In this document: positions 38,101 through 64,000 of the stretch, piece by piece
Position numbering within the stretch: the stretch's first letter is position 1
Layout: every line of letters begins with the position of its first letter
NCBI RefSeq assembly: GCF_037975245.1
Contig: NC_092569.1
Span: 28,994,668 to 29,058,667, forward strand
DNA from: Apostichopus japonicus
Taxonomy: Eukaryota; Echinodermata; Holothuroidea; Aspidochirotida; Stichopodidae
DNA length: 64,000 nucleotides
Reading direction: 5' to 3'
Notes under the pieces: generated by a model
Told to the model about the DNA's origin: nothing
What the model saw: the letters and a program-made list of their open reading frames with translations, nothing else
The model's database searches: none
Made by a program: the position numbers and the translations under genes

Positions 38101-41100
38101 GCACTATCAGTTCACACAACAATACTCAGAGAGCTCTCAAGGGAAATGGATATATTATTCAATAGAACATCAACTCACTGTAGTATGTATACAAGATGGC
38201 TGTCTCCACTTTAGCTCTGGTTTCATTGTTACTTGCCCATTCCTGGCGACAAAATTAAGTAACGAAATATCAATACATTTAAAATTTCATACAGTTGGCA
38301 CACTGCCATGCATTGTATGTATGCAAATTAAGACTGAAATTTTGTATAAGGGTAATAAGTGATTGACCCTTTCCTTTCATGTATATACTGTACTTATATA
38401 GATATAATTGAAATTAAAGTGAGTTGGAAAATCCAGAACAGTGAAAAAATTCCAGACACCACCGAGATTCGAACCCGGGCCTCCCACTTTATATGTCAAC
38501 ACCATACTACATATATAGATAGTTTAATAGAAAAATATTTTCTTTTTTTGGCTGTATTCTTTAATTCTGCTCTTCAAACAGATATGATTTTATATAATAT
38601 AATATAATATAATATAATATAATATGATATACTGTACATACTATAAAATATATATTATAAACAATGATTTATATTTATATACAAATATTTATATACAATA
38701 TATACAATACAAAAATATTTATATACAAATATATATATTGTATACAAATATATATATACAAATATATACAAATTTATATACAAATTTATACACAAATATA
38801 TACAAATATTTATATTTATATACAAAAAACAAAATAAATATATATCAAAACAAATATATATATAATATAAAATATAAAAAAATTTAATATGTGGACAGTA
38901 TCATACCTTGAATTCTCCATCAGGGTCTTTCATGTACGAAACAACAAAGATGTCGACTGGAATCAGGGCCAGTGCTCCCAGCGTCACCATCAGTGAAATG
39001 ACACCTGTAATATAAGGGGTTACCTTCCGTAAGAGTTGAATTATTTTATTATTACGACGTTATTTATATAGCGCATAATCCACAAGTTCTATGCGCTTTA
39101 CAATTAACCCTTGTCATAGGTACAGTAACTTGTCACACCTACACACCAAAGTGTGCACAATTCAAACAATCTCTCCTGGGGCACAACAGTGCACCACAGC
39201 CACGTGTCCCCTGGGGGACTTCCCATAGGGTGCAGCCACAAACCGGGCGCACACAACTATATTTACAAGTCACCTCGCAAGTCCCCATTTATACAACTGG
39301 GTGAAGAGAGGCAATGGAGGTGCCTTGCCCAAGGACACAACGCAATGATCTGGCCAGGGCTCGAACCTGTAATCCTTAGATCACAAGTCCACTGCCTTAA
39401 CCACTTGACCACAATGCCCCGAATTAAAACAGATCATAAATGATACCATTGTCTGATTGATCATCATGAAAACTAAAGGCACCAATTTTACTGAGTCATA
39501 AATGGTGCAATTTAATACCACCCTGCAAAGTTAATGACTTTTAGGCAGGCTTCGTTGTGGACCTTTTGTCACAAATTTCCAACTATCGCATCTTATGTAA
39601 TTACCTCAAAACTGTAAGATTAAAACAAATCAAATTATAAGGCACCTTCCAAAACAAGAATATGCTTCTTTTAACAACAATGATTTTTATTTTCTATTAC
39701 TATTCAAGGGACACAAACCAAAATCATCATCTTTGGATTTTACTGTAAGTACTATATATATGACAAAGATGTCTGTGAACTCCCCCCCCCCCTACAGTGT
39801 AGGGCCCATTGATATAAACAATGGTCAAGGATACAATATAGGGTCAATTGATATAACCACTGATCAAGGCTACAGTGTAGGGCCCATTGATATCACCACT
39901 GATCAAGGCTACAGTGTAGGGCCCATTGATATTACCAATGATCAAGGCTACAGTGTAGGGCCCATTGATATAGCCACTGACCTATTTCATTCAAATAGGC
40001 CTAGATATCATATCCCAAATTTCCTACGAGCTCTCATTGTCCCCCTCCATATTGTAATATACGGAAAATGTCATTTATCATCAACGACTTATAAAAAGAC
40101 TAAATACAATTTGTCAGCTTCAACGATCGTTAGAGAATAGGCCTAGTGTCACAGAATATGCACATATGCATACCGTTCATTGTGCAAAACGTTCAGTGAC
40201 CTGTACTGCACAGTGCATCTTATGAGTATATACTGTACAGTAGTGGTTACTGTTTGTGAGTCGTACAAAGGGCAATAACTTATGATAGCCGAATACAATT
40301 TGAATATGTAACTGAACAGATTTAAATGCATGCAAAGAGAGGTTTTATTGTTTGTGACATTGAGGGTTTTTATAGTTTTTGAAGATTTTTCATTTTTTTT
40401 TATTATCATTAACATATTTTTTGGTGATTTCCTTGTTGAACTCATCATTGACTTCTCTAGCACTGGCGTGTAAATTGGTCTGGACTTTTTTGACCAGTAG
40501 GTATAGTTCTAGACATATTGTGCAGTGCAATCATTATTTACAGTAGCTAATGGACAGCAGTTTGTTCAATGTTGGTAGAATCAAAGTTTGAATTGCATGG
40601 AAGCTAGCAAGAATCAAAGATAGTTGCAGCTCTCCAAAATCTGTAAATAAATTTTCAAAAGTATGGAAAATCCCTGTGACCAGGTGACCCACTCTTGGGG
40701 TCACACACTCCACAGTTTGCGGGCAATTGCCCTAGGGTATAGTTAAACACAAACGTGAACTACTGTACACACCAGTGGTTGTGGAACTACAGACACTGCT
40801 TCTCTTGTTGCGATAATACCGGATGTAGAATGTTGACAAAATTCCAGATACCTGAAATAAAAGGAAAAAATTGTTTAAAATTGTGTTTATTTAGTAAATT
40901 TGAGCCCAATTTTACATGGATAATCATGCATGCACAGGTATGATGTATGGTCTTTCAGTAGAAATTCCCTGCCATGTAAAATTCTTTTGGTATGGGTCTA
41001 GGGCAGGGTTGTCCAACCTTTTGCAGAGGAGGGCCACATGGAATGATTATGATGAAGGAGGGGGCCACATGAACCCTACGCTCGATCTTTTGCCCGAAGC

Positions 41101-45296: not shown

Positions 45297-48200
45297 TCAC
45301 GCCCTGTAAAACTCTTGTAACTCTGCATCGACCGGTTTAAGCACAGCTCTGTCTGTCAAGTTGATGATCCAACCGGGTTGTAATCCAAAGAATATTTGGC
45401 GAGGGTCTTTTCTTAACCGGTGAAGGGCTCGCCGGGAGCCCTTCGTGAGATCCGGAAGTTCGTATCCAAACTTTTGGGCTAATAGTAATCTGTCTTCTTT
45501 GATTTGGTTCGGATCTGACAAGTAGCCTCTCTTAGAAGGATCTGTGTACATATCGACCAGATCCTTGGGGGGTAAAAGTCTTTTAGGAATAGGCTGGCCT
45601 CTCCTGAAGAACTGCAATGGGTGTGAGAGAATATCCAAGCTCTGTGGGTCATAGTATCCGAGACTTATCGTTCCCCCGCTCCGCTCTACGGCCGCGATGG
45701 ATAATTCAGATGTCCACTGTACTTCTAAATTGACAGGGGCAACAAACTTATCAGCACCCTGTGAATGAAGACAGTATTGCAATAATTAGCCTTATTTGAT
45801 ATATATGAATATTACCATCTTGGACACTTGCTTACGGTCATGATAGAACCTCAGAAATTCAAAAACGGTAGCAAATTTGCAAATTCGGTTTACGCTTTGC
45901 ACAGTTACTACTTCTCGCCAAAACAACGATTTCATATTTATGATGTTTTGACATGATGGTTGCAAGTGTGCACAAACGGCAACTTTCAGATTGATTTCCA
46001 TTTTGAGAAAAAGGAGTACGGTATGTGTGCAGACTATGTGTGCAGACCCTATGTTTTACCAATTTTCAATGTGTGTTAGTCGTCAATGTGATATCCCTCC
46101 TGCAGTTTAGTCACCATGTACACTACAGTATGTTTCTGTATTTGCAAGCAAAAAAATTTCATGATATGAAAGAGAGAGAGTAAAAATATCAAAACATTAA
46201 GACTAGAGCATCTCCAGAAATGATCGATAATATTTAACTGCTTGCCACTCTCTCTATTACTCCATTTGAAATGTTGCTAGAAATGGCAAAGGATCATCAA
46301 GATACTAAACTGAATTATCACAAATTCACTGAGCAACTTATCGGCCACTGAAATTTATGTACTGAAGTGAACTTTATGGTGAAAGTTTACAAGAATATTG
46401 AACTATTACTACTAGTTTAGTTGAACAAATCTAGATTTCAAATGAATATGTTTTGGATGTTACTTTCTTTCTACATATCATTTTGTCCATGAACCATGGT
46501 TGCATACAGTGCAGGCTTCCACTTAGTACTATGGTACACAGTACTTGAAGAGGAAACCATGGTTGCATACAGTGCAGGCTTCCACTTAGTACTATGGTAC
46601 ACAGTACTTGAAGAGGAAACCATGGTTGCATACAGTGCAGGCTTCCACTTAGTACTATGGTACACAGTACTTGAAGAGGAAACCATGGTTGCATACAGTG
46701 CAGGCTTCCACTTAGTACTATGGTACACAGTACTTGAAGAGGAAACCATGGTTGCATACAGTACAAACTTCCACTTAGTACTATGGTACACAGTACTTGA
46801 AGAGGAAACCATGGTTGCATACAGTGCAGGCTTCCACTTAGTACTATGGTACACAGTATTGAAGAGGAAACCATGGTTGCATACAGTGCAGGCTTCCACT
46901 TAGTACTATGGTACACAGTATTGAAGAGGAAACCATGGTTGCATACAGTGCAGGCTTCCACTTAGTACTATGGTACACAGTATTGAAGAGGAAACCATGG
47001 TTGCATACAGTGCAGGCTTCCACTTAGTACTATGGTACACAGTACTTGAAGAGGAAACCATGGTTGCATACAGTACAGGCTTCCACTTAGTACTATGGTA
47101 CACAGAACTTGAAAGGAAAACTTCTGTGAGACAACAGGTTTGGCTTACACTTTGGCAATACCACTTTACCTCATCTGTTAGGTGTATCCCATAAACTCTA
47201 TCGAATACATTGATTCGCACAGCCCCAGCATGTACAAAAGAGGTGACATCAATGGGCTCTTCTGGGTCGATTCGGCCCATGTCAATTAAATGTTGCAACT
47301 TCTCCAGGGAGACAGGTAAGTACTGTCTTCTTGTGCTGAGGATAGAGAAAAGCAAAGAGGGGTGTAACATCTAATAATAGAAACAGTACATACATAGCCA
47401 TGTACACAATTACAAAGTTACCTTGACATTGTAAATACTTTTTGGAAATACCAGACAATTTTGAACCAAAATGTACACTGCTAATTGTCATCAGGAACTA
47501 GAGTACTAGCGCTAACGGTGCTAAACCAAGCTTGAGGAGAGGAGTGTCCAGAGGGGGTATCATAACCAGGGCAGAAGTCTGGGGGCCAAGGAAAATGTGA
47601 TCATGAATATGCATTCTCATTTGCAAAATCGACTTACGGAAGAATTAACATATACTACTGTAAGGTAGGATTTTCGGGGACAGTCCCCAATTACAGTGTG
47701 CTGTCCTCGATGAACAAGTGTCCCCGAAAATGTCCCCGATTCGTCAAAATGTTCAGGAATTTCGAAAATATCCGACATAATTAGTAAAATAATTGCTAAA
47801 ACAAAACTTAGTCAAGTGTGCAGTCGCAGATTGGAACGGAACACAAATTTATGACACAAGCAACTCACAAGCTCTTAAGAACCATGTAAAGTAAGTGAAT
47901 TTCATCTAAGAAAAAGCTACATTTTTGAAAATAAAAGTGATTTAAAAAGTGCTTCTAAGTATCACCATTTTACATCTACTGTAAGCACCTTAGGCACTTG
48001 AAAATTTTGCAAAGAGGAAAGGGACACCCCTCCCCTTAAACCCCTACCCCATATCAGTCAAGCAATAAATGTCCCTGATTCCAGTCAGGAAAATATGGTC
48101 ACCTTATACTACAGAGTGCTGTACTTGTACCCGGGGGTCCCATCTGACTCTCTATGCTCCTGTGTGAATTTGACAGCCTTGAACTGATTATTATTGTAAT

Positions 48201-53055: not shown

Positions 53056-56000
53056 ATGTTTGGAAGAAAGAAGCAGAAAGATGTCCTCGATGAGAATGCT
53101 CAGAGTAAACTTGCCAAGGTAACACTTACTAATATTACTAGTTACAGTTATGTGAAGACTAGCCTTATGGCTACACCCTAGCATAGGCCTAGCCTATCTA
53201 TGTTAGTTTAGTAGGGGAAAAAAATGATCAGGAGGGACACTCAATTCCTCATCAAGGACCCTTTAGGAGAGAAAAAAAAAACTGAAGACATAAACACTCA
53301 GATCCGATTACAATGCTTAAAGTGCTTATCCAAAGCATTCGTAAACCCATTCACACTACAGTACTTTCCTTGCTTTCAAAATGCCTATAAGCACCTCCAG
53401 AGTTCAATAGAAATAAAATCCTTATCAAAATTTATGCCTCACCCCATCTCCCCCAATTTTTTAGTGTTATCATGTGCTAATATACACATTGGTTATTGTT
53501 AACCCTCAAGGTGCAATGTGTACAGTACTACAAATGTATTTGAAGACCAACTGTGCTATATATACATCCACCAAAGAGTAAATACAAATACTCCTACTAG
53601 GCCTAGGAGTAGTAGGACTAGCCTAGTCAAGTTAAGTCTTTAACTTATACTAGTTACTACTAGGCTAGGCTAGTTGCGAGACAGATAAACCAGGACAAGT
53701 CACTTCAAAATCTTCAATGTTGAAGCTCAGTGTCAACATGGACATCTTAAAGTTAAGCCATTGAAGTGCATGTGATCAGAGTTTATCTGTAGCCTGAACG
53801 TCACAAGATTGATCAACTGTGTGTGCTGTTGCCTTTTCATCTCATAGCAATTGGGAATCTCACTCCCAGGCATGGAAGACCTGGAAGAAACAGACGATGA
53901 TGACCCAGATGAAATGTTGGAGGCAGAGTTACTGGCTTTAATGGAAGAGGAAGCAGATAGCTCACCACCTCCATCTGGTCATTCTTGTAAGGGCTTGACA
54001 GCTTGTCTATAACATGTCGGTTTATTCGTCTTACATAAGTTTGCCTTAATTATCATTTACATTTATTTGCTCTTGGTTGTGAGCTTTATACCATTGAACA
54101 AGTTCTCTGATAACTCTTGCATGTTTCTTGGATCATTATCAGAATGTCAAACACATATTCTCTCAATTTCAGAGTCTATCTCAGGGGTCATTCCATGTCA
54201 TATCAACCAGTGGTCCCCAGGTGACCTCTTAGATTTTGATGAAACTTCATCATGTCCCAAATGAACACATACAAAAAAGTAAAATCATATATACTTCATG
54301 TCGTTTCGAGATACAGCACATTGAAACTTGGCCAAGACGGCCAATTTTTTTAAGTTCGCGATTTCCGTAAGAAGTGCCATTTGTGATATTTCCGACTTTG
54401 AAAGCTCATAACTCAGTCTTTGTACCTGGTAGAGAGCTCGAATTTAGTAATCGATCTTACTTCTTGCCAAAATTCATGAATCTGCACTCAATTTAGCTAT
54501 ATCTTCTTCATTTCTCTGGTTATGATCACCCAAAGTAGGCACTTTATTCAACTGAAAATGTTTTCAGAAAATTGGTTGATATGAGGCGGAATGACCCATC
54601 TTAGGAATACTCGGTTTTCAATTGTAAGAGGTTATTTGTGCATGTTAGGCCGTTTAGATCATTAATTTGGAATAGGCAGGTTATTATTGTTGTTAATTGC
54701 TAGTTTCCAAACATTTTACCAACCCTGTCGAGTCATACTGTAGCTTTGCAAATTTTGCCCTTGTTTCAGCTACTGTAAGACGAACACCTCAACGTTCTAT
54801 TCAAGGATATATCAATTTGTAGACAGTACAGAATTATACAAGTTTCATTTGGCAATTATTTCAAGGAAACTTAATCAGTCAAACAATGAACTGCATTGTT
54901 GTGTGGCTCTGGTGTCGAAAAAAGAAATCATTCTTGAAAATTAACCTTTTAAGTCATTTGCAAACAGTTTCTTTATCAGCATTGAACTATTCATTACAAA
55001 TTAGCAACAAGAAGTAAATAAATAATGATAATAATAATCGGGCAGTTTACTTTTTCAACCACGAACATGGGAGAAGCCCATAAGGGCTTACAAGTGGATT
55101 ACAGCTTTCACATTGGGTGGCTTCCAATACAACATTTTAATTCAAATTTGGAATCTTTTCAATTTACAAAGTCATTTCATATGGGAAAATTGTGGATTGC
55201 TCTTCGATGAAAAATCCACCATACAGTGGCCCAGCCGGGGATCGAACCATGAATCACCTGATTGCTAAGCCTCATTGCTTCAAATGCCACCGGCTTTATC
55301 CACTCAGCCACAGCACTGGTACCCTGAAACACAGGGTAGAGTAGTGCTGGAGTAGTCTTCATAGCATTTAAAACTATAATATTCAGCCTGGAATTAATTA
55401 TGTCTGGTATCTGAGTACTATGAACAGGGCAAAAGTTCTTTATAAATGCAATGATGCATACTGTAGTTACAGTTACTTTGTTTAGTATTTAGTACATCAG
55501 GACCTTTGTAGCTTAATGTTGTATGACACATGCATTATTTGAAAAAACTGCTATGTGAAGAATAAAATTGTTCTCTGAACTTGATTTTAGATTCATTTGT
55601 CTCATTTTTAACCAGCAAGGAAACAAGAAATGGAAATAGATGAAGCAGAGGATGATGAAGATATATTGGTAGGTGCTATTAATTATTAAATTCATGATTT
55701 TTCTTTGTTGTTTTTATTGTTTTGTTTTCGGTCTTGTCTTGAAGCCTTCCAGAGTTATACAAATATATTCTATGGGTCATTCCATGTCAAATCAGGGATG
55801 GCTGTTGCTGGACCCTCTCCAAAATCCCCCAAATTTATTTTGTATTCTTGGAACACCATGAAATAAGCATATTCTGAAATAAGCATATTCTGAAAATTTC
55901 AGTTGCATTCCTTCAAAAATGGCCAATTTATCACACTTTGAAATTTGGCAAATTGGCGCCACTGTGGCATTGCATAAATACATGTATATACATAATAAAT

Positions 56001-59000
56001 GTATATAGTATTTGCTTATATGACATTAAAGTCTGCACAGAACTGAATTGAATGACCTTGAAGGCTCACAAACATGTGGAACATCAAAACAGGCAAACTT
56101 TGAGGATATTTCATATAAGTATTTAAGGCAAAACACCCTCCTGAAATGTTTGTACATACAGGGTGGTACTATATCTCTTCCAGACAAAATAACAAATTTT
56201 TCAACACAACGTGTTTTGAGTTACTGGCTGTAAAAGACGACCTCTTTTGTACATCAGAGCAACTTAACAACCTCATAAATTAATACTGAGAAATGCTAGA
56301 ACCCTGATATTTGGTAATGTGTACTGAAAGAATACTTATAATTAAAGTACTAAACCCTCACATCTCTAAAATGATTACGTCGGTAAAAACTTGGCATCAA
56401 AACCCCTTCCTCATGCTGAATCGCAGCATGAAATAGCAACTTCAGAGCTGCAAAACTTGCAAATATATTACAGGAAAGCAAAAATGTGATAATATAAAAT
56501 ATCTTTAGTATTGTTTGTACTAGACATAATAACCTCTGAAAGAATCAAGTACCCTGCAGCAATGGTTTAGGAACAATTCATCACTAAAAAAAGCACATTG
56601 AAGTTCACTCCACAATGCAATGATTTATAGCCTTAATTTTTTATTTTCCATTTCTATTGTATAGACTCTATAGGCTTCTGTAATGGAAAGGTAGTAGGAT
56701 GTTTTATTGTTGAGAAATGATACCTCAAAAATCAAGAAAATGCCCAAATGCCACGGTGGCAACAAATTGCAGAATTTCAAGTTTGATAACTCTGCCAATT
56801 TTGAACCAATGCAACTGAAATTTTCAGAATATATGCTTCCTTCATGGTATTCCATGCATACAATTAATTTGGAATTTTTAAAAGATGTTGAAACTACAAC
56901 ATACTCCAAAATTTGGTGATTTGATGGAATGACCCATATCTTCATATTCAGAATTTGAAGAGAGAAAGAATGAGTTATGTTTTAAAACATCAAGTTTTGG
57001 TTTGGATTTATGACCGATTCATATTAATCAAATTTATTGCTTTAGGACAGTTGCGTGCATTGGCGTCTTTAAATGTTGTAATCCTATTTTGTACTAAATG
57101 TCTATTAAGTTATTGCAAAGTTTTGCTCTGAAAAAATTGTGAAAGATGTCAAAATTTGGTATTGCAAATGAATAGTAATACAATAGTTCACTAGCTACAA
57201 GTAGGCTAGAGAGTCCAGTTATGGTCACTCTTGAGGAATAATTTATTTTGTATTGTAAAGCATTGAATCAATGTGCCAGAAAATGAGCAATTTGCTACAT
57301 AAATTAAAATATATCAGTTTGGTATTGTACAAGGGACCAGGGTTGCCAGATCATCTACTGTATTTTGTAACTAGCCAAATTGGCCTCAAAATTGGGTGAG
57401 ATAATGTCAAATTTATAGGAATTTGCTAACATTATTTAATGACAGTTTACCTTGTGGGTAAGAAAGTTTGTGTGTAAGTAATTGTATCGTAATTGAGGGT
57501 GTCTTAAATGAAACATGGAGTAAAACATGATTAAAAATTGCCAATTAATATCCTTACATGCTGGTAGGCTCTGATGTGCAACTTTAAATGGGACTGAACA
57601 GCATAAAATAATTGAAATTAATGTTTCTTTGGGGAATTTAGCAATTTTTAGCTACCTGTACTGTACAACCTTTTTTTTTTTTTTTTTAAATTGGTAGACC
57701 ATTCAAATATATGCCTAAATTTGTCAACCCTGCACTGAACCATTTAACGCTTTATTCAGTATTTATATTCCATTGTCACTCCTGCTAAAATTTCAGAAAG
57801 GATCTTACTATCGGGATGAGAACATGAAACAATCTGTTTCTTCATGAGGCATTTAATTGGACATGACAAAATTGACAACAAACAAAAGGCAAATTCTTCA
57901 AAATATGAAGTGTAGTGAGCTTTCTGATCTAGTTATGTTGTCCTGTTGGGTCAAGCTTTGGGGATTACCAGCTGTCTACTGCTTGACCAAATGTAAGAAA
58001 ATGTAAGAAAACAAGTCTCGTGTCCGGAAACCGAAGAGAGTTTGGTATAGTAGATTCAGGTGCGACGAATACATCCACTCATGACACAGTCATGTCACAG
58101 ATCGTTGTTCAAATCTCAAAATTGACTTACTGTGTTCTTAACTTAAATGAAGAAGCTTGGATCTGATATTAACCTTATACCTAATTAATGGGTTGTACCA
58201 GTATGATTATTATTATAATTTACTATAAATTTGAATTTACCTGTATGTAACAACCAGTCAGTTGTATCATAACTAGTGGTTGTTCATACTGCATAACTTC
58301 AAAATAAAGTACTCAAGAATTCAATATTTTATTTTCAATAGGCGGAGCTTGCTGGAATTGAATCTCTGAAAGGTGACAGCCCGTCTCCCGAGCCGCCTCC
58401 CCCGGCATCAAAGCCAGGGGTGGTTAAACGAGAAGCGCCCCCATCCAAAGAAGAAACACATGTAGCTCCTCCGTCAAGACCGCCCGTGGCACAGCCTAGA
58501 AGCAATGTTTCCCAACCATTGAATATTCAACCTCTGGAACCAACCCCTGCTGTATCCCCGGCTCAAACAACAGTCGCCGGTGTCCATAGGCCTGCGCCGA
58601 TTCACAAGCCACCCGCCGTCCCCGAGACTCGTAAGCAGGAGGACCACCAGTCAACGTTTGTGCCAGCAGTAACGCATCAACCTCAGGTTGTGATTCCCCA
58701 GGGCAATGCCGGGGTCTACCCTAGACCGGACTACCCAGGATCTGATAGGATTATGGCGTCAGTCCCTAAACAGGTAAAACCCATTTCTTGCTGTAATATT
58801 AACTGAAGAAGAAAGGTACAGATTCGGTCATTTCGGTCATTCAGATTTCGGTCATTCAGATTTCGGTCATTCAGATTCGGTCACAAATAACAAGATATAT
58901 GCTTCATTAAACTTCCAAAGTTATGGTCTATCTTAAATCAGAATTGAAATTCATTTTGAAAGAATGTATCAATGGTTGGTGTAATGCTGTGTACAGTTAA

Positions 59001-61297
59001 AGATTTAGACTTTCTCCAACTTTCATTAGATATGATTTATAGCTAATATTTGTTTTGACTCAAAGTCAAACTTTGCAATCTAATGCAGTTCGCTTGATTC
59101 TTTCATCATATGTCATAAATTAACAGTAAAAACGTTAATATGAGTTGACGTTAAGTACGCCAACTACTATACATCACAATATACCCTTTCTTGATAACTA
59201 AGATTTTAATCTGTATGTTTTGCTCTTTGGTAATGAATATGGGTTTCAGCAAAGGGGATGATGTTTGTGGATATTACCCTTGCTTTGTTCCTCAAACGGA
59301 TAATTCATACAAGATCATTTCAATCAATCATTTTCACATTTCTGTGTACATATTGAATTTTTCTAGACCAAAATTTTTTCTCTTACAGCCAATAGGCCCC
59401 GGTGGTGTGACAACAATTATTGAATCTCGCATCAGAAATTACGAGACAGCTCTTTCGAATGCTCGTTTGAATCACCAAGATACAAAAGCAAGGCGATATG
59501 ACAGAGGATTGCAGGTGTGTAGTATCATCAATGATTTGATAATAATAATTAATAATTAACATTTCTTATATAGCGCAACTTACAATAAAGTCTCCCCGCG
59601 CTGTACTTAACCCTGGTCATTGATAACTTGTCAAACCTACACACCAAAGTGTGCACAATCCAAACAATCTCTCCTGGGGCACCACAGTGCACCACAGCCA
59701 CGTGTCCCCAGGGGGGACTTCCCATAGGGTGCAGCCACAAACCGGCACACGCAACTATATTTACAAGTCACCTCGCAAGTCCCCAGAAGAGAGGCAATGG
59801 AGATAAAGTGCCTTGCCCAAGGACACAACGCAATGATCTGGCCAGGTTTCAAACCTGTAATCCTGGAAGTGTTAATTGTGGTAGTAAGTTTATATGTCAA
59901 GATATGTCAGATTGTGAAGGACCTTATAGAACTGTGAGTGAGTGTACCCAATGATCTCTGCATGGTCATCCGCATGGTCAACGCTGAAGACTCTCTGATG
60001 TCCTGGTTCTGACTTTATTTTCGGACAAATTTAAAGGGTGTGAAGACTCGCGCAAAAAGAAATGTCTAAAGCCGGTAATCTGACCTAGTTTCGAATGAGG
60101 TGTAACAGAAGTGTTAGACACCACCATCGATCCCAGAAAATACACACACAGCTTGCTACCGTCAGTAATTAGACACTAGTGTACTTACAGCTGCGGTCAA
60201 TACCCACAGCACAGTGTACATATAATAGCAGCAATGGACATCTCAGGTCTAGATAAAAGATAACAAGGTATCACCTTTCATTACTGTACTGTCTGCATTT
60301 TGTCGCGACATGAACAAAACGTCACTTGCAAGCAACGGAAAGTTAACTTTTTCAGATGGCCGCACGGTTTGGGGCGAGTCTTCAATACCTTTAACTCGGT
60401 TGTTTTATACTGAGATGAAACTAACAATATTTTATTGCAAGGAATCGCAAAGCTTCTGGTTGAATTTTCTCTGGTTAATCATGATTTCTTTGCTCAATGT
60501 AATTTTTAAATCTTAGCCAAAAATTACGACTGAAGATGGGAAGAGTAGTTTAGCATAACTTTGCCCCCCAGTAAAGCAATCTGTTTTCGAACAGATAGTA
60601 ATCAATATGAAATCTACATGACACAGAATTGATTTAACGGTGATATCCTAAATATGTCATAACTTTATGATCACTTGGTACGAAGTATAGGAATGAGAAA
60701 GACAATAGTCTAAAGACAATACAAGCTCATTTGTCCAAAGAGAGTGAATTTACATTGTATGATCGGACTGCAAAGGCGTAGTGGTGTCATTTGTGATTTC
60801 AATGCAGTCCTTGGGATTTGTGATTTAAGGATATGTTAGATTATCTTGGTTTGAAAGATTAACTGTGAATTTGAACTTTGGCATTCTGTGATTGTCTTTA
60901 ACTAGTGCCTCACAAAGGGAGTAACTAAAAAATTAAGTTGAAAGCAATTATCATGAAGTTTATGACTTTGTTTATGGTATACAATTTTGACTTGTTTACA
61001 ATTATGTATAGATTCGTCCATGGGACTTAGTACTAATGTTCTGCTGTGCAATATTTGATGAATTATTTTCCAAGTCTTAAATGATAAAGTTCTTTCCCAT
61101 TTAACGTCGTCTTCTGACATCACCGTTGAAAATCTGCTTCTAACAACAGACACTTAAAGACCTTCATAAGAGAGCCAAAGCAGGACGGCGAGTTGATGAA
61201 TCAGAGGTCCCGCCAGAAGTGGCTGTAGGGATCAGCCAAGAAGTGGAAAGGCCACCAATGGATGCTACTACCACAGAACCCCAGACTACAGTCCCAG
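53056..61297 (+). CDS. CC2D1: CC2D1A/CC2D1B (Lgd) orthologue, 5' part; 3' end beyond window
   Basis: Exons: 53056-53118, 53848-53986, 55616-55668, 58342-58773, 59389-59514, 61150-61297 (the last ends in phase 1). This gives 320 residues before the window ends. Family: DM14- and C2-domain proteins (Drosophila Lethal giant discs) that bind ESCRT-III CHMP4/Shrub and modulate Notch trafficking; vertebrate CC2D1A was also described as a DRE-binding repressor. Exons 1-2 show an acidic stretch (MEDLEETDDDDPDEMLEAEL) like the N-terminus of human CC2D1A. Exon 3 continues it. Exon 4 (144 codons) is a Pro-rich linker. Exons 5-6 encode the first DM14 domain, including RIRNYETALSNARL, RRYDRGLQTLKDL and VDESEVPPEVAVG. 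The remaining DM14 repeats and the C2 domain should lie downstream. I cannot say whether it is the 1A, 1B or a pre-duplication gene; an invertebrate would usually have one. Exon 6 ends at the first donor of a 45-copy satellite. Confidence 0.93.
54185..54598. mobile_element. Short GGTCATTCC-ended element, 414 bp
   Basis: Left GGGGTCATTCCATGTCATAT and right ATATGAGGCGGAATGACCC are inverted. The interior differs from the two longer copies, so it may be a separate subfamily. It lies in CC2D1 intron 2. Confidence 0.7.
55022..55330 (-). mobile_element. tRNA-derived SINE, second family, in CC2D1 intron 2
   Basis: The minus strand reads GCTGTGGCTGAGTGGATAAA (A box) and GGTTCGATCCCCGGC (B box) with a long variable arm, as in Leu/Ser-type tRNAs. 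About 200 bp of body follows, ending in ATTATTATTATCATTATT. Confidence 0.8.
55773..56936. mobile_element. GGTCATTCC-ended long-inverted-repeat element, 1.16 kb
   Basis: Left TGGGTCATTCCATGTCAAAT, right GATTTGATGGAATGACCCA, with TA on both sides. The body matches the 48422 element through several hundred bases. It lies in CC2D1 intron 3. Confidence 0.82.
58832..58893. repeat. 16-17-bp minisatellite, about 4 copies
   Basis: TTCGGTCATTCAGAT units lie about 60 bp inside CC2D1 intron 4. Confidence 0.85.
59540..59866 (-). mobile_element. Second copy of the same SINE, head-truncated, in CC2D1 intron 5
   Basis: Shares ACACACCAAAGTGTGCACAA, TCTCTCCTGGGGCAC and AGTGCCTTGCCCAAGGACAC with 39120-39350. 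It lacks most of the tRNA-like head past the B box. The tail is AT-rich (AATAATAATTAATAATTAA). It begins about 26 bp after exon 5. Confidence 0.82.
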
Positions 61298-63873
61298 GTA
61301 AGCACCTAGAACCACAGAACCCCAGACTACAGTCCCAGGTAAGCATCTAGAACCACAGAACCCCAGACTACAGTCACAGGTAAGCACCTAGAACCATACT
61401 ATTGCTACTACCACAGAACCCAAGACTACAGTCCCAGGTAAGCACCTAGAACCATACTATTGCTCCTAACACAGAACCCCAGGCTACAGTCACAGGTAAG
61501 CACCTAGAACCATACTATTGCTACTACCATAGAACCCCAGACTACAGTCCCAGGTAAGTACCTAGAACCATACTATTGCTACTACCACAGAATCCCAGAC
61601 TACAGTCCCAGGTAAGCACCTAGAACCATACTATTGCTACTACCACAGAACCCCAGACTACAGTCCCAGGTAAGCACCTAGAACCATACTATTGCTACTA
61701 CCACAGAACCCCAGACTACAATCACAGGTAAGCACCTAGAACCATACTATTGCTACTACCACAGAACCCCAGACTACAATCACAGGTAAGCACCTAGAAC
61801 CATACTATTGTTACTACCACAGAACCCCAGGCTACAGTCCCAGGTAAGCACCTAGAACCATACTATTGCTACTACCACAGAACCCCAGACTACAATCACA
61901 GGTAAGCACCTAGAACCATACTATTGTTACTACCACAGAACCCCAGGCTACAATCACAGGTAAGCACCTAGAACCATACTATTGCTACTACCACAGAACC
62001 CCAAACTACAGTCACAGGTAAGCACCTAGAACCATACTATTGCTACTACCACAGAACCCCAGACTACAGTCACAGGTAAGCACCTAGAACCATACTATTG
62101 CTACTACCACAGAACCCCAGACTACAGTCACAGGTAAGCACCTAGAACCATACTATTGCTACTACCACAGAACCCCAGACTACAGTCCCAGGTAAGCACC
62201 TAGAACCATACTATTGCTACTGCCACAGAATCCCAGACTACAGTCCCAGGTAAGCACCTAGGACCATACTATTGCTACTACCACAGAACCCCAGACTACA
62301 GTCCCAGGTAAGCACCTAGAACCATACTATTGCTACTACCACAGAACCCCAGACTACAATCACAGGTAAGCACCTAGAACCATACTATTGCTACTACCAC
62401 AGAACCCCAGACTACAATCACAGGTAAGCACCTAGAACCATACTATTGTTACTACCACAGAACCCCAGGCTACAGTCCCAGGTAAGCACCTAGAACCATA
62501 CTATTGCTACTACCACAGAACCCCAGGCTACAGTCACAGGTAAGCACCTAGAACCGTACTATTGCTACTACCACAGAACCCCAGACTACAATCACAGGTA
62601 AGCACCTAGAACCGTACTATTGCTACTACCACAGAACCCCAGACTACAATCACAGGTAAGCACCTAGAACCGTACTATTGTTACTACCACAGAACCCCAG
62701 GCTACAGTCCCAGGTAAGCACCTAGAACCATACTATTGCTACTACCACAGAACAACAGACTACAATCACAGGTAACACCTAGAACCATACTATTGCTACT
62801 ACCACAGAACCCCAGACTACAATCACAGGTAAGCACCTAGAACCGTACTATTGTTACTAACACAGAATCCCAGGCTGCAGTCCCAGGTAAGCACCTAGTA
62901 CCGTACTATTGTTACTACCACAGAACCCCAGGCTACAGTCCCAGGTAAGCACCTAGAACCGTACTATTGTTACTACCACAGAACCCCAGGCTGCAGTCCC
63001 AGGTAAGCACCTAGAACCATACTATTGCTACTACCACAGAACCCCAGACTACAATCACAGGTAAGCACCTAGAACCGTACTATTGTTACTACCACAGAAC
63101 CCCAGGCTACAGTCCCAGGTAAGCACCTAGAACCATACTATTGCTACTACCACAGAACCCCAGACTACAATCACAGGTAAGCACCTAGAACCATACTATT
63201 GCTACTACCACAGAACCCCAGACTACAATCACAGGTAAGCACCTAGAACCGTACTATTGTTACTAACACAGAACCCCAGGCTACAGTCCCAGGTAAGCAC
63301 CTAGTACCATACTATTGTTACTACCACAGAACCCCAGGCTACAGTCCCAGGTAAGCACCTAGAACCGTACTATTGTTACTACCACAGAACCCCAGCCTGC
63401 AGTCCCAGGTAAGCACCTAGAACCATACTATTGTTACTACCACAGAACCACAGGCTACAGTCCCAGGTAAGCACCTAGAACCATACTATTGCTACTACCA
63501 CAGAACCCCAGACTACAGTCACAGGTAAGCACCTAGAACCATACTATTGTTACTACCACAGAACCACAGGCTACAGTCCCAGGTAAGCACCTAGAACCAT
63601 ACTATTGCTACTACCACAGAACCCCAGACTACAGTCCCAGGTAAGCACCTAGAACCATACTATTGCTACTACCACAGAACCCCAGACTACAATCACAGGT
63701 AAGCACCTAGAACCATACTATTGCTACTACCACAGAACCCCAGACTACAATCACAGGTAAGCACCTAGAACCATACTATTGTTACTACCACAGAACCCCA
63801 GGCTACAGTCCCAGGTAAGCACCTAGAACCATACTATTGCTACTACCACAGAACCCCAGACTACAATCACAGG
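61298..63873 (+). repeat. 58-bp tandem array, about 45 copies, each carrying a 5' splice site
   Basis: The array begins at the 3' end of CC2D1 exon 6 and fills the start of its last visible intron. The first two units are 41 bp, lacking a 17-bp block; the rest are about 58 bp. Each unit reads donor GTAAGC, ACCTAGAACC, a TACTATTGCTACTACC stretch, ACAG, then a 21-nt copy of the exon-6 tail ending in CAG before the next GTAAGC. Copies fall into subtypes: CAGTCCCAG, CAGTCACAG or CAATCACAG endings, and AGACTAC versus AGGCTAC. The unit is not a multiple of 3, so no long ORF exists. The array stops at about 63873. Confidence 0.95.
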
Positions 63874-64000
63874 TAAGCAGTGTTCGACTTATGGTCAAAA
63901 CATTGCATAGCAACAAATTTGGACAATTGCTATACAATATTTTTGTTGCATAGCAGTTCCCCAATATTGAATAGCAGTTTTGAAATTACCACAAAACGGA

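Follow-up and report, generated by a model that had tools for sequence, protein, structure and literature searches.

Introduction

A splice-donor minisatellite was reportedly described by Turri, Cuin and Porter in 1995 in the human gene IFI6 (6-16, G1P3). The IFI6 unit is 12 bp long and its alternative donors keep the reading frame. Two downstream units of the repeat are reported to be used as donors, giving rise to three mRNA species (PMC4526556). Arrays of dual-specific splice sites have been described in human UBC and VCX3A (Duan 2024, PMC10809524), human segmental duplications are reported to contain internal tandem repeats at their exon-intron boundaries (PMC2812944), and introns are reported to be gained when a segment with AGGT is duplicated in tandem (PMC4974935). 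Among the open papers listed in our searches, none was seen to describe several donor arrays in one genome.

Here we describe an array of donors in intron 6 of a CC2D1 gene and compare it with similar arrays at other exon ends of the same genome. The window, i.e. the whole stretch of DNA that was analysed, is 64,000 nucleotides long and corresponds to G000:C9:28994668-29058667 of a 671.6-Mb assembly, the genes of which point to an animal.

Results

The array and its host gene

The joined protein of the host gene matches the profile PF21528 (CC2D1A-B_DM14) in three DM14 stretches (E 5.9e-35), the domain expected of the CC2D1 (CC2D1A/B) family. The gene model runs to exon 9, with six exons in the window (Table 1) and three downstream, all in frame and with AG/GT borders. 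The phase-1 end of exon 6 is continued in frame by exon 7 (L009:2053-2168, beyond the window) with the whole array left out, so that no part of the array is required for the normal message.

The left edge of the array is the exact end of exon 6. From 61298 to 63873 we count 46 strong 5' splice sites (NAG|GTAA), exon 6's own donor and 45 repeats, with spacings of 41, 41 and then 58 bp (42 times) and a single 57-bp unit after 62772. The 58-bp unit consists exactly of the last 35 nt of exon 6 and the first 23 nt of intron 6, and the ancestral start of intron 6, GTAAGCACCTAGAACCATACTATTGGGATGG, is still present downstream, beyond a hAT-like element that borders the array. Thus, as in the IFI6 type, the unit contains a 5' splice site and its first copy is the exon end. 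A preliminary description of this DNA had already named the gene, given phase 1 for exon 6 and seen the exon/intron boundary copied in every unit, all of which we find again, and it had placed about 45 tandem 5' splice sites here, where the position holds and the count becomes 46.

Allowing up to 3 mismatches, CAGGTAAGCACCTAG occurs 44 times in the window versus a mean of 1.5 in 100 shuffles, and Tandem Repeats Finder gives 43.6 copies with 94% matches. When four units were searched against the 671.6-Mb assembly, skipping very common words and scoring the best candidates, all 15 matches fell at the CC2D1 locus. NAGGTAA is present in every unit and the spacing is without gap; in one unit the donor is changed to GTAACA. 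The 42 units of 58 bp fall into 23 distinct types, with one block of five unit types present twice and no regular higher-order period in the array. The breakpoints in the exon (GGA/TG/CTACT) and in the intron (CTAT/TG/GGATGG) have TG in common, which suggests that the array is the product of a simple tandem duplication. The 41-bp units would fit a 58-bp unit that lost the 17 bp between two ACCA motifs.

At the 63873 end of the array a 1,560-bp hAT-like element (L009:78-1637) is inserted in the last donor. Its inverted ends (CAGTGTTCGA...TCGAACACTG) lie between two copies of CAGGTAAG, so that the 8-bp target-site duplication is itself a copy of the donor, and a 47th CAGGTAAGCACCTAGAACCATACTATTG lies beyond the element. 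When 600 bp from its left end were searched, the genome offered 421 candidate places, of which the 40 scored are all 98-100% identical. Six element loci were examined, and in the three in which both ends were found (the array copy and two others) the 8-bp target-site duplications are perfect; in the other three the end patterns were not both found. Terminal inverted repeats with 8-bp duplications thus recur in several copies, and from the features of the hAT superfamily we take the element to be hAT-like. It is probably a young insertion that landed in the donor and copied it.

Table 1. Positions of the CC2D1 exons, the array and its border in the window, and of arrays at other exon ends
Feature	Position	Strand	Basis
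CC2D1 exon 1, coding, starts ATG	53056..53118	+	frame continuity, GT donor
CC2D1 exon 2	53848..53986	+	AG/GT, frame continuity
CC2D1 exon 3	55616..55668	+	AG/GT, frame continuity
CC2D1 exon 4	58342..58773	+	AG/GT, frame continuity
CC2D1 exon 5, start of first DM14 domain	59389..59514	+	PF21528 best stretch 240-295 of the joined protein
CC2D1 exon 6, end of first DM14 domain; last 35 nt are the exon part of the unit	61150..61297	+	frame continuity
Donor 1 (GTAAGC), presumed functional 5' splice site of intron 6	61298..61303	+	frame continuity into exon 7
Two 41-bp units	61298..61379	+	spacing; putative 17-bp deletion, from sequence
First of 45 copies of the 21-nt segment, candidate micro-exon (ACAG|...CAG|GTAAGC)	61318..61338	+	sequence
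42 units of 58 bp and one of 57 bp, each then NAG|GTAA	61380..63872	+	spacing, sequence
CAGGTAAG, last donor in the window and left copy of the 8-bp target-site duplication	63870..63877	+	sequence
Left end of hAT-like element	63878..64000	.	inverted end CAGTGTTCGA; element ends at L009:1637, outside the window
KRI1 array	L034:2411-3882 (G000:C2:28046500-28053500)		PF12936 across junction
HECTD3 array	L033:1984-4289 (G000:C2:2295000-2302500)	minus	HECTD3 chain 9r85_A across junction, E 8e-67
VPS39 array	L048:220-931 (G000:C8:23173500-23174700)		PF10366 across junction, E 3.2e-19
Glycine-rich gene array	L047:447-948 (G000:C17:904900-906400)		

Similar arrays at other exon ends

Similar arrays at other exon ends of the genome lay beyond the reach of the preliminary description. 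The assembly was scanned on both strands for three copies of a word 20-50 nt apart, with the pattern read backwards as the tool's control. The donor word CAGGTAAG gave 424 matches versus 218 backwards; the first 100 listed were all on C2, in five arrays, and among these matches two further exon ends were found, those of HECTD3 and KRI1. The nonamer CAGGTAAGT gave 61 matches (48 backwards) in six arrays, namely KRI1, VPS39, a glycine-rich gene on C17 and arrays on C9, C5 and C10; no clear exon was found at the C9 array and none was seen at the C5 and C10 arrays. With AAGGTAAGT there were 50 matches (38 backwards) in nine arrays. Two of these, C2:13555057 and C20:34765125, seem to lie at exon ends, C20:34765125 having only AAAG in common with the exon, and one is ambiguous (C21). 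The remaining six showed no clear exon by eye, and one of them, C5:9169090, has an open frame of 91 aa.

The KRI1 array starts exactly at the exon end and has 27 donors in 54-bp units of 31 nt exon and 23 nt intron, and that of HECTD3, which also starts at the exon end, has 47 donors in 49-bp units of 36 nt exon and 13 nt intron. In VPS39 the boundary is present in 12 copies with a unit length of 56 or 58 bp, and most copies read GTAAGT where the donor of the exon itself is GTAGGT. In the glycine-rich gene, for which no family match was obtained, a 56-bp unit supplies 9 donors and open frames lie on both sides. A PTP-like exon (NDYINASLVD|GTGAGT), the match of which to PF00102 is weak (E 0.19), is followed by a 91-bp unit with 7 donors (L035:90-724). 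Thus, including CC2D1, there are eight arrays at known or probable exon ends, and for four of these (CC2D1, KRI1, HECTD3 and VPS39) confirmation comes from the gene model or from a match to a protein family or structure that spans the junction.

Further observations were made along the way. The PTP-like array was found by accident, near a 13-bp array of 324 copies (L035:2548-6762). The consensus unit of the glycine-rich gene could hold an in-frame mini-exon of 30 nt after TTACAG. A 48-bp array on the minus strand (G000:C17:27219654-27220959) has in its unit both the acceptor-like TTCTCCCAATACTACAG and AAG|GTAAGT, with no clear exon upstream. Within the window, a 63-bp array (46492-47119) of 10 copies at 98% begins roughly 50 nt, as judged by eye, inside an intron of a minus-strand gene, which we take to resemble MRPL15, and a 39-bp array (39792-39980) lies in an open frame and would read as a repeated YSVGPIDITTDQG-like peptide.

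Chance, tolerance and the conservation of donors

As one long array yields many matches, the excess of donor words over the backwards pattern is weak. A scrambled nonamer, CAGATGAGT, the single word used as such a control, gave 125 matches versus 42 backwards and at least five arrays among the 100 places listed; the donor nonamer CAGGTAAGT with its six arrays is not commoner. Enrichment of donors in tandem arrays was therefore not supported, the scrambled word being at least as frequent. Among acceptor words, TTTTGCAGG gave 1 match in 1 array (315 matches backwards) and TTTTTCAGG 13 matches in 3 arrays (9 backwards), and none of the three arrays of which the flanks were read, leaving out one on C6, lay clearly at an exon start, two motifs being too few to claim an asymmetry between donors and acceptors. 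Chance together with tolerance suffices to explain the donor arrays, and in the simplest view the genome is rich in minisatellites, of which those that straddle a donor survive as the first donor still works.

The alternative that survives best is a regulatory one, in which the 45 spare donors would hold U1 snRNP and thereby tune the splicing of exon 6, give rise to frameshifted (NMD) messages or shield intron 6 from early polyadenylation. The donors of the array are strong, with a predicted U1 pairing of -11.0 kcal/mol versus -4.8 to -10.0 in 8 other scored donors of the gene, so that inner donors could compete with donor 1, and their use would cause a frameshift into a stop. The gapless presence of NAGGTAA in every unit points the same way, as does the lower variation of donor columns: over six arrays the donor nonamer has 3 variable columns versus 8.6 expected (P 0.012) and over four arrays P is 0.031, a result that is not secure, as both tests took standard-length units only, so that odd-length units with damaged donors fell outside the count (among them the CC2D1 unit with GTAACA and, in VPS39, four units of 58 bp, of which three have GTAGGT or GTAACT), and selection may yet keep donors intact. 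In the C9 array, which has no clear exon and lies outside this test, 2 of the 9 donor columns are variable. The idea is weakened by VPS39, in which one of the 12 copies has lost its GT (GGAAAG) and two have GTAACT, and by the fact that donor-bearing arrays are not favoured over the one scrambled control. We consider a decoy function unlikely.

The 21-nt segments

The preliminary description had read the copied exon tails as in-frame micro-exons of 21 nt. Splicing would then include some of these segments as a variable cassette, and EPQTTVP-like heptapeptides would follow the first DM14 domain. All 45 segments lie in frame between an acceptor-like AG and a donor, preceded by ACAG (ATAG in one case) and followed by CAG|GTAA, and, as had been stated from the copies read, they are free of stops and unchanged in length. 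The heptapeptides are indeed EPQTTVP-like; 12 different ones are encoded, more than the four listed before, including ESQTTVP, EPKTTVP, EQQTTIT and EPQPAVP. The tract upstream of the segment has 13 pyrimidines in 20, within the range of 8 to 18 in 8 real acceptors of CC2D1, so that the sequence by itself does not forbid use and the earlier objection that the tract is too weak is not clearly borne out.

Against this reading stands the variation of the segments. Among the 58-bp units (42 of the 45 units, the two of 41 bp and the one of 57 bp being omitted) pi is 0.097 in the 21-nt part versus 0.034 in the remaining 37 nt, with variable columns numbering 9 of 21 versus 8 of 37; the excess is matched in 4.8% of column shuffles, and 57 of 58 circular shifts give none larger. 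Ten distinct changes in the 21-nt part, sorted by hand, comprise 8 non-synonymous and 2 synonymous ones, where 44:17 are possible. Sequence constraint, as expected of micro-exons, was thus not found in these 42 units, the changes looking neutral, and the preservation of the 21-nt part that the earlier account implied does not hold; preserved coding segments were rejected. As only 2 of 63 single changes create a stop, the absence of stops (chance probability 0.72) is uninformative, and a single indel among the 37 other positions is unremarkable.

The frame itself is inherited. In five of the six arrays compared, CC2D1 included, there is an in-frame, stop-free mini-exon, because the piece copied into each unit is exon; a special in-frame design of the CC2D1 array was accordingly rejected as generic. 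Adjacent segments are separated by 37 nt (20 nt in the 41-bp units). Spliced human introns of 43, 49 and 56 nt have been reported (PMC4463651), and as the gaps are shorter than the 43-nt intron, inclusion of adjacent segments is unlikely in an animal, in agreement with the doubt previously raised about wholesale inclusion. Ciliates are reported to splice introns of about 25 bp (PMC5014332). Inclusion with skipped units would sidestep the short-intron limit. Taken together, splicing of the 21-nt segments into the message is very unlikely, and the micro-exon reading of the preliminary description is not supported.

Dual-specific sites and assembly

AG|GT is present at each unit junction, at 46 sites in all, as in the arrays of dual-specific sites of the UBC type. 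CAG|GTAAGC could then act as acceptor or donor, and intron 6 would be removed stepwise or with variable segments retained. AG|GTAA closes every unit, and the tandem AGGT arrays of UBC can be spliced in this way (PMC10809524). However, the tract before CAG|GT has only 10 pyrimidines in 20, though one real acceptor has 8, and the consensus unit when read through meets a stop after 60 nt, unlike the coding monomers of UBC. We give this possibility the same slight chance as the micro-exons. Long tandem arrays are hard to assemble, but the diversity of unit types, the clean insertion with its target-site duplication at the edge and the similar arrays at five further exon ends all speak against an artefact, and that the array was collapsed or inflated during assembly is scarcely credible.

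Discussion

Based on our data we propose that the array is a splice-donor minisatellite, a duplication of the exon boundary that grew into the intron, of which the first donor is used and the rest is nearly neutral. We regard this as probable, and the best fit among the three options of the preliminary description is a satellite that captured a donor. In this view 58 bp spanning the boundary of exon 6 and intron 6 would have been duplicated in tandem at the shared TG, and unequal exchange or slippage may have expanded them, always on the intron side, to about 45 units. Of these, two would have lost 17 bp, and the hAT-like element would later have landed in the last donor, copying CAGGTAAG. Donor 1 presumably still splices exon 6 to exon 7, U1 and the spliceosome most likely choosing the donor that bounds the coding exon. 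With donor 1 in use, the remaining donors would leave with the intron, rendering the array nearly neutral, whereas an inner donor, if occasionally used, would lengthen the message by at least 41 nt and bring in a frameshift or stop. The same process would have struck other genes, and such arrays may survive because they are tolerated where they lie, in the intron behind a working donor.

A further proposition is that minisatellites arise time and again from 5' splice sites in this genome (six genes at the least and probably eight, by a few donor words) and that their arrays are a lasting stock of intact donors and in-frame mini-exons that supplies alternative isoforms or new exons and introns, with selection keeping the donors intact. 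We find this doubtful as a whole. The CC2D1 array is a new and large example of a rare known kind, and its recurrence across genes is the part worth a proper count, as a genome with several donor arrays, the largest of 47 donors, turns a curiosity into a countable class. Such arrays are natural experiments on how the spliceosome chooses among dozens of near-identical, evenly spaced donors, with copy number as a built-in variable, and they show tandem duplication lengthening introns and planting in-frame mini-exons while the gene stays unbroken. They also carry a warning: in a donor array, segments flanked by AG and GT that are in frame and free of stops are to be expected from their descent and do not count as evidence of an exon.

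How does the array compare with the systems described? Like the intron gain by AGGT duplication, it has tandem duplication as the source of its splice-site copies; unlike it, an old intron has been lengthened and no new intron is seen. With the boundary repeats of human segmental duplications it shares the growth of a minisatellite at an exon-intron boundary, which can change splicing (PMC2812944), yet those repeats are short (units of 30 bp on average, four times), lie in recent paralogs and have new introns inferred from transcripts, whereas the arrays described here reach 47 donors, lie in conserved genes and are known from genomic sequence alone. UBC and VCX3A likewise have tandem AG|GT sites inside a repeat; there the repeats are coding and splicing has been shown for UBC, while those of CC2D1 are intronic. 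The closest precedent is IFI6, in which, as in CC2D1, a minisatellite on an exon end supplies many donors; the CC2D1 array differs from it in its 58-bp unit (1 mod 3), in inner donors that would shift the frame and in belonging to a genome where several genes carry such arrays.
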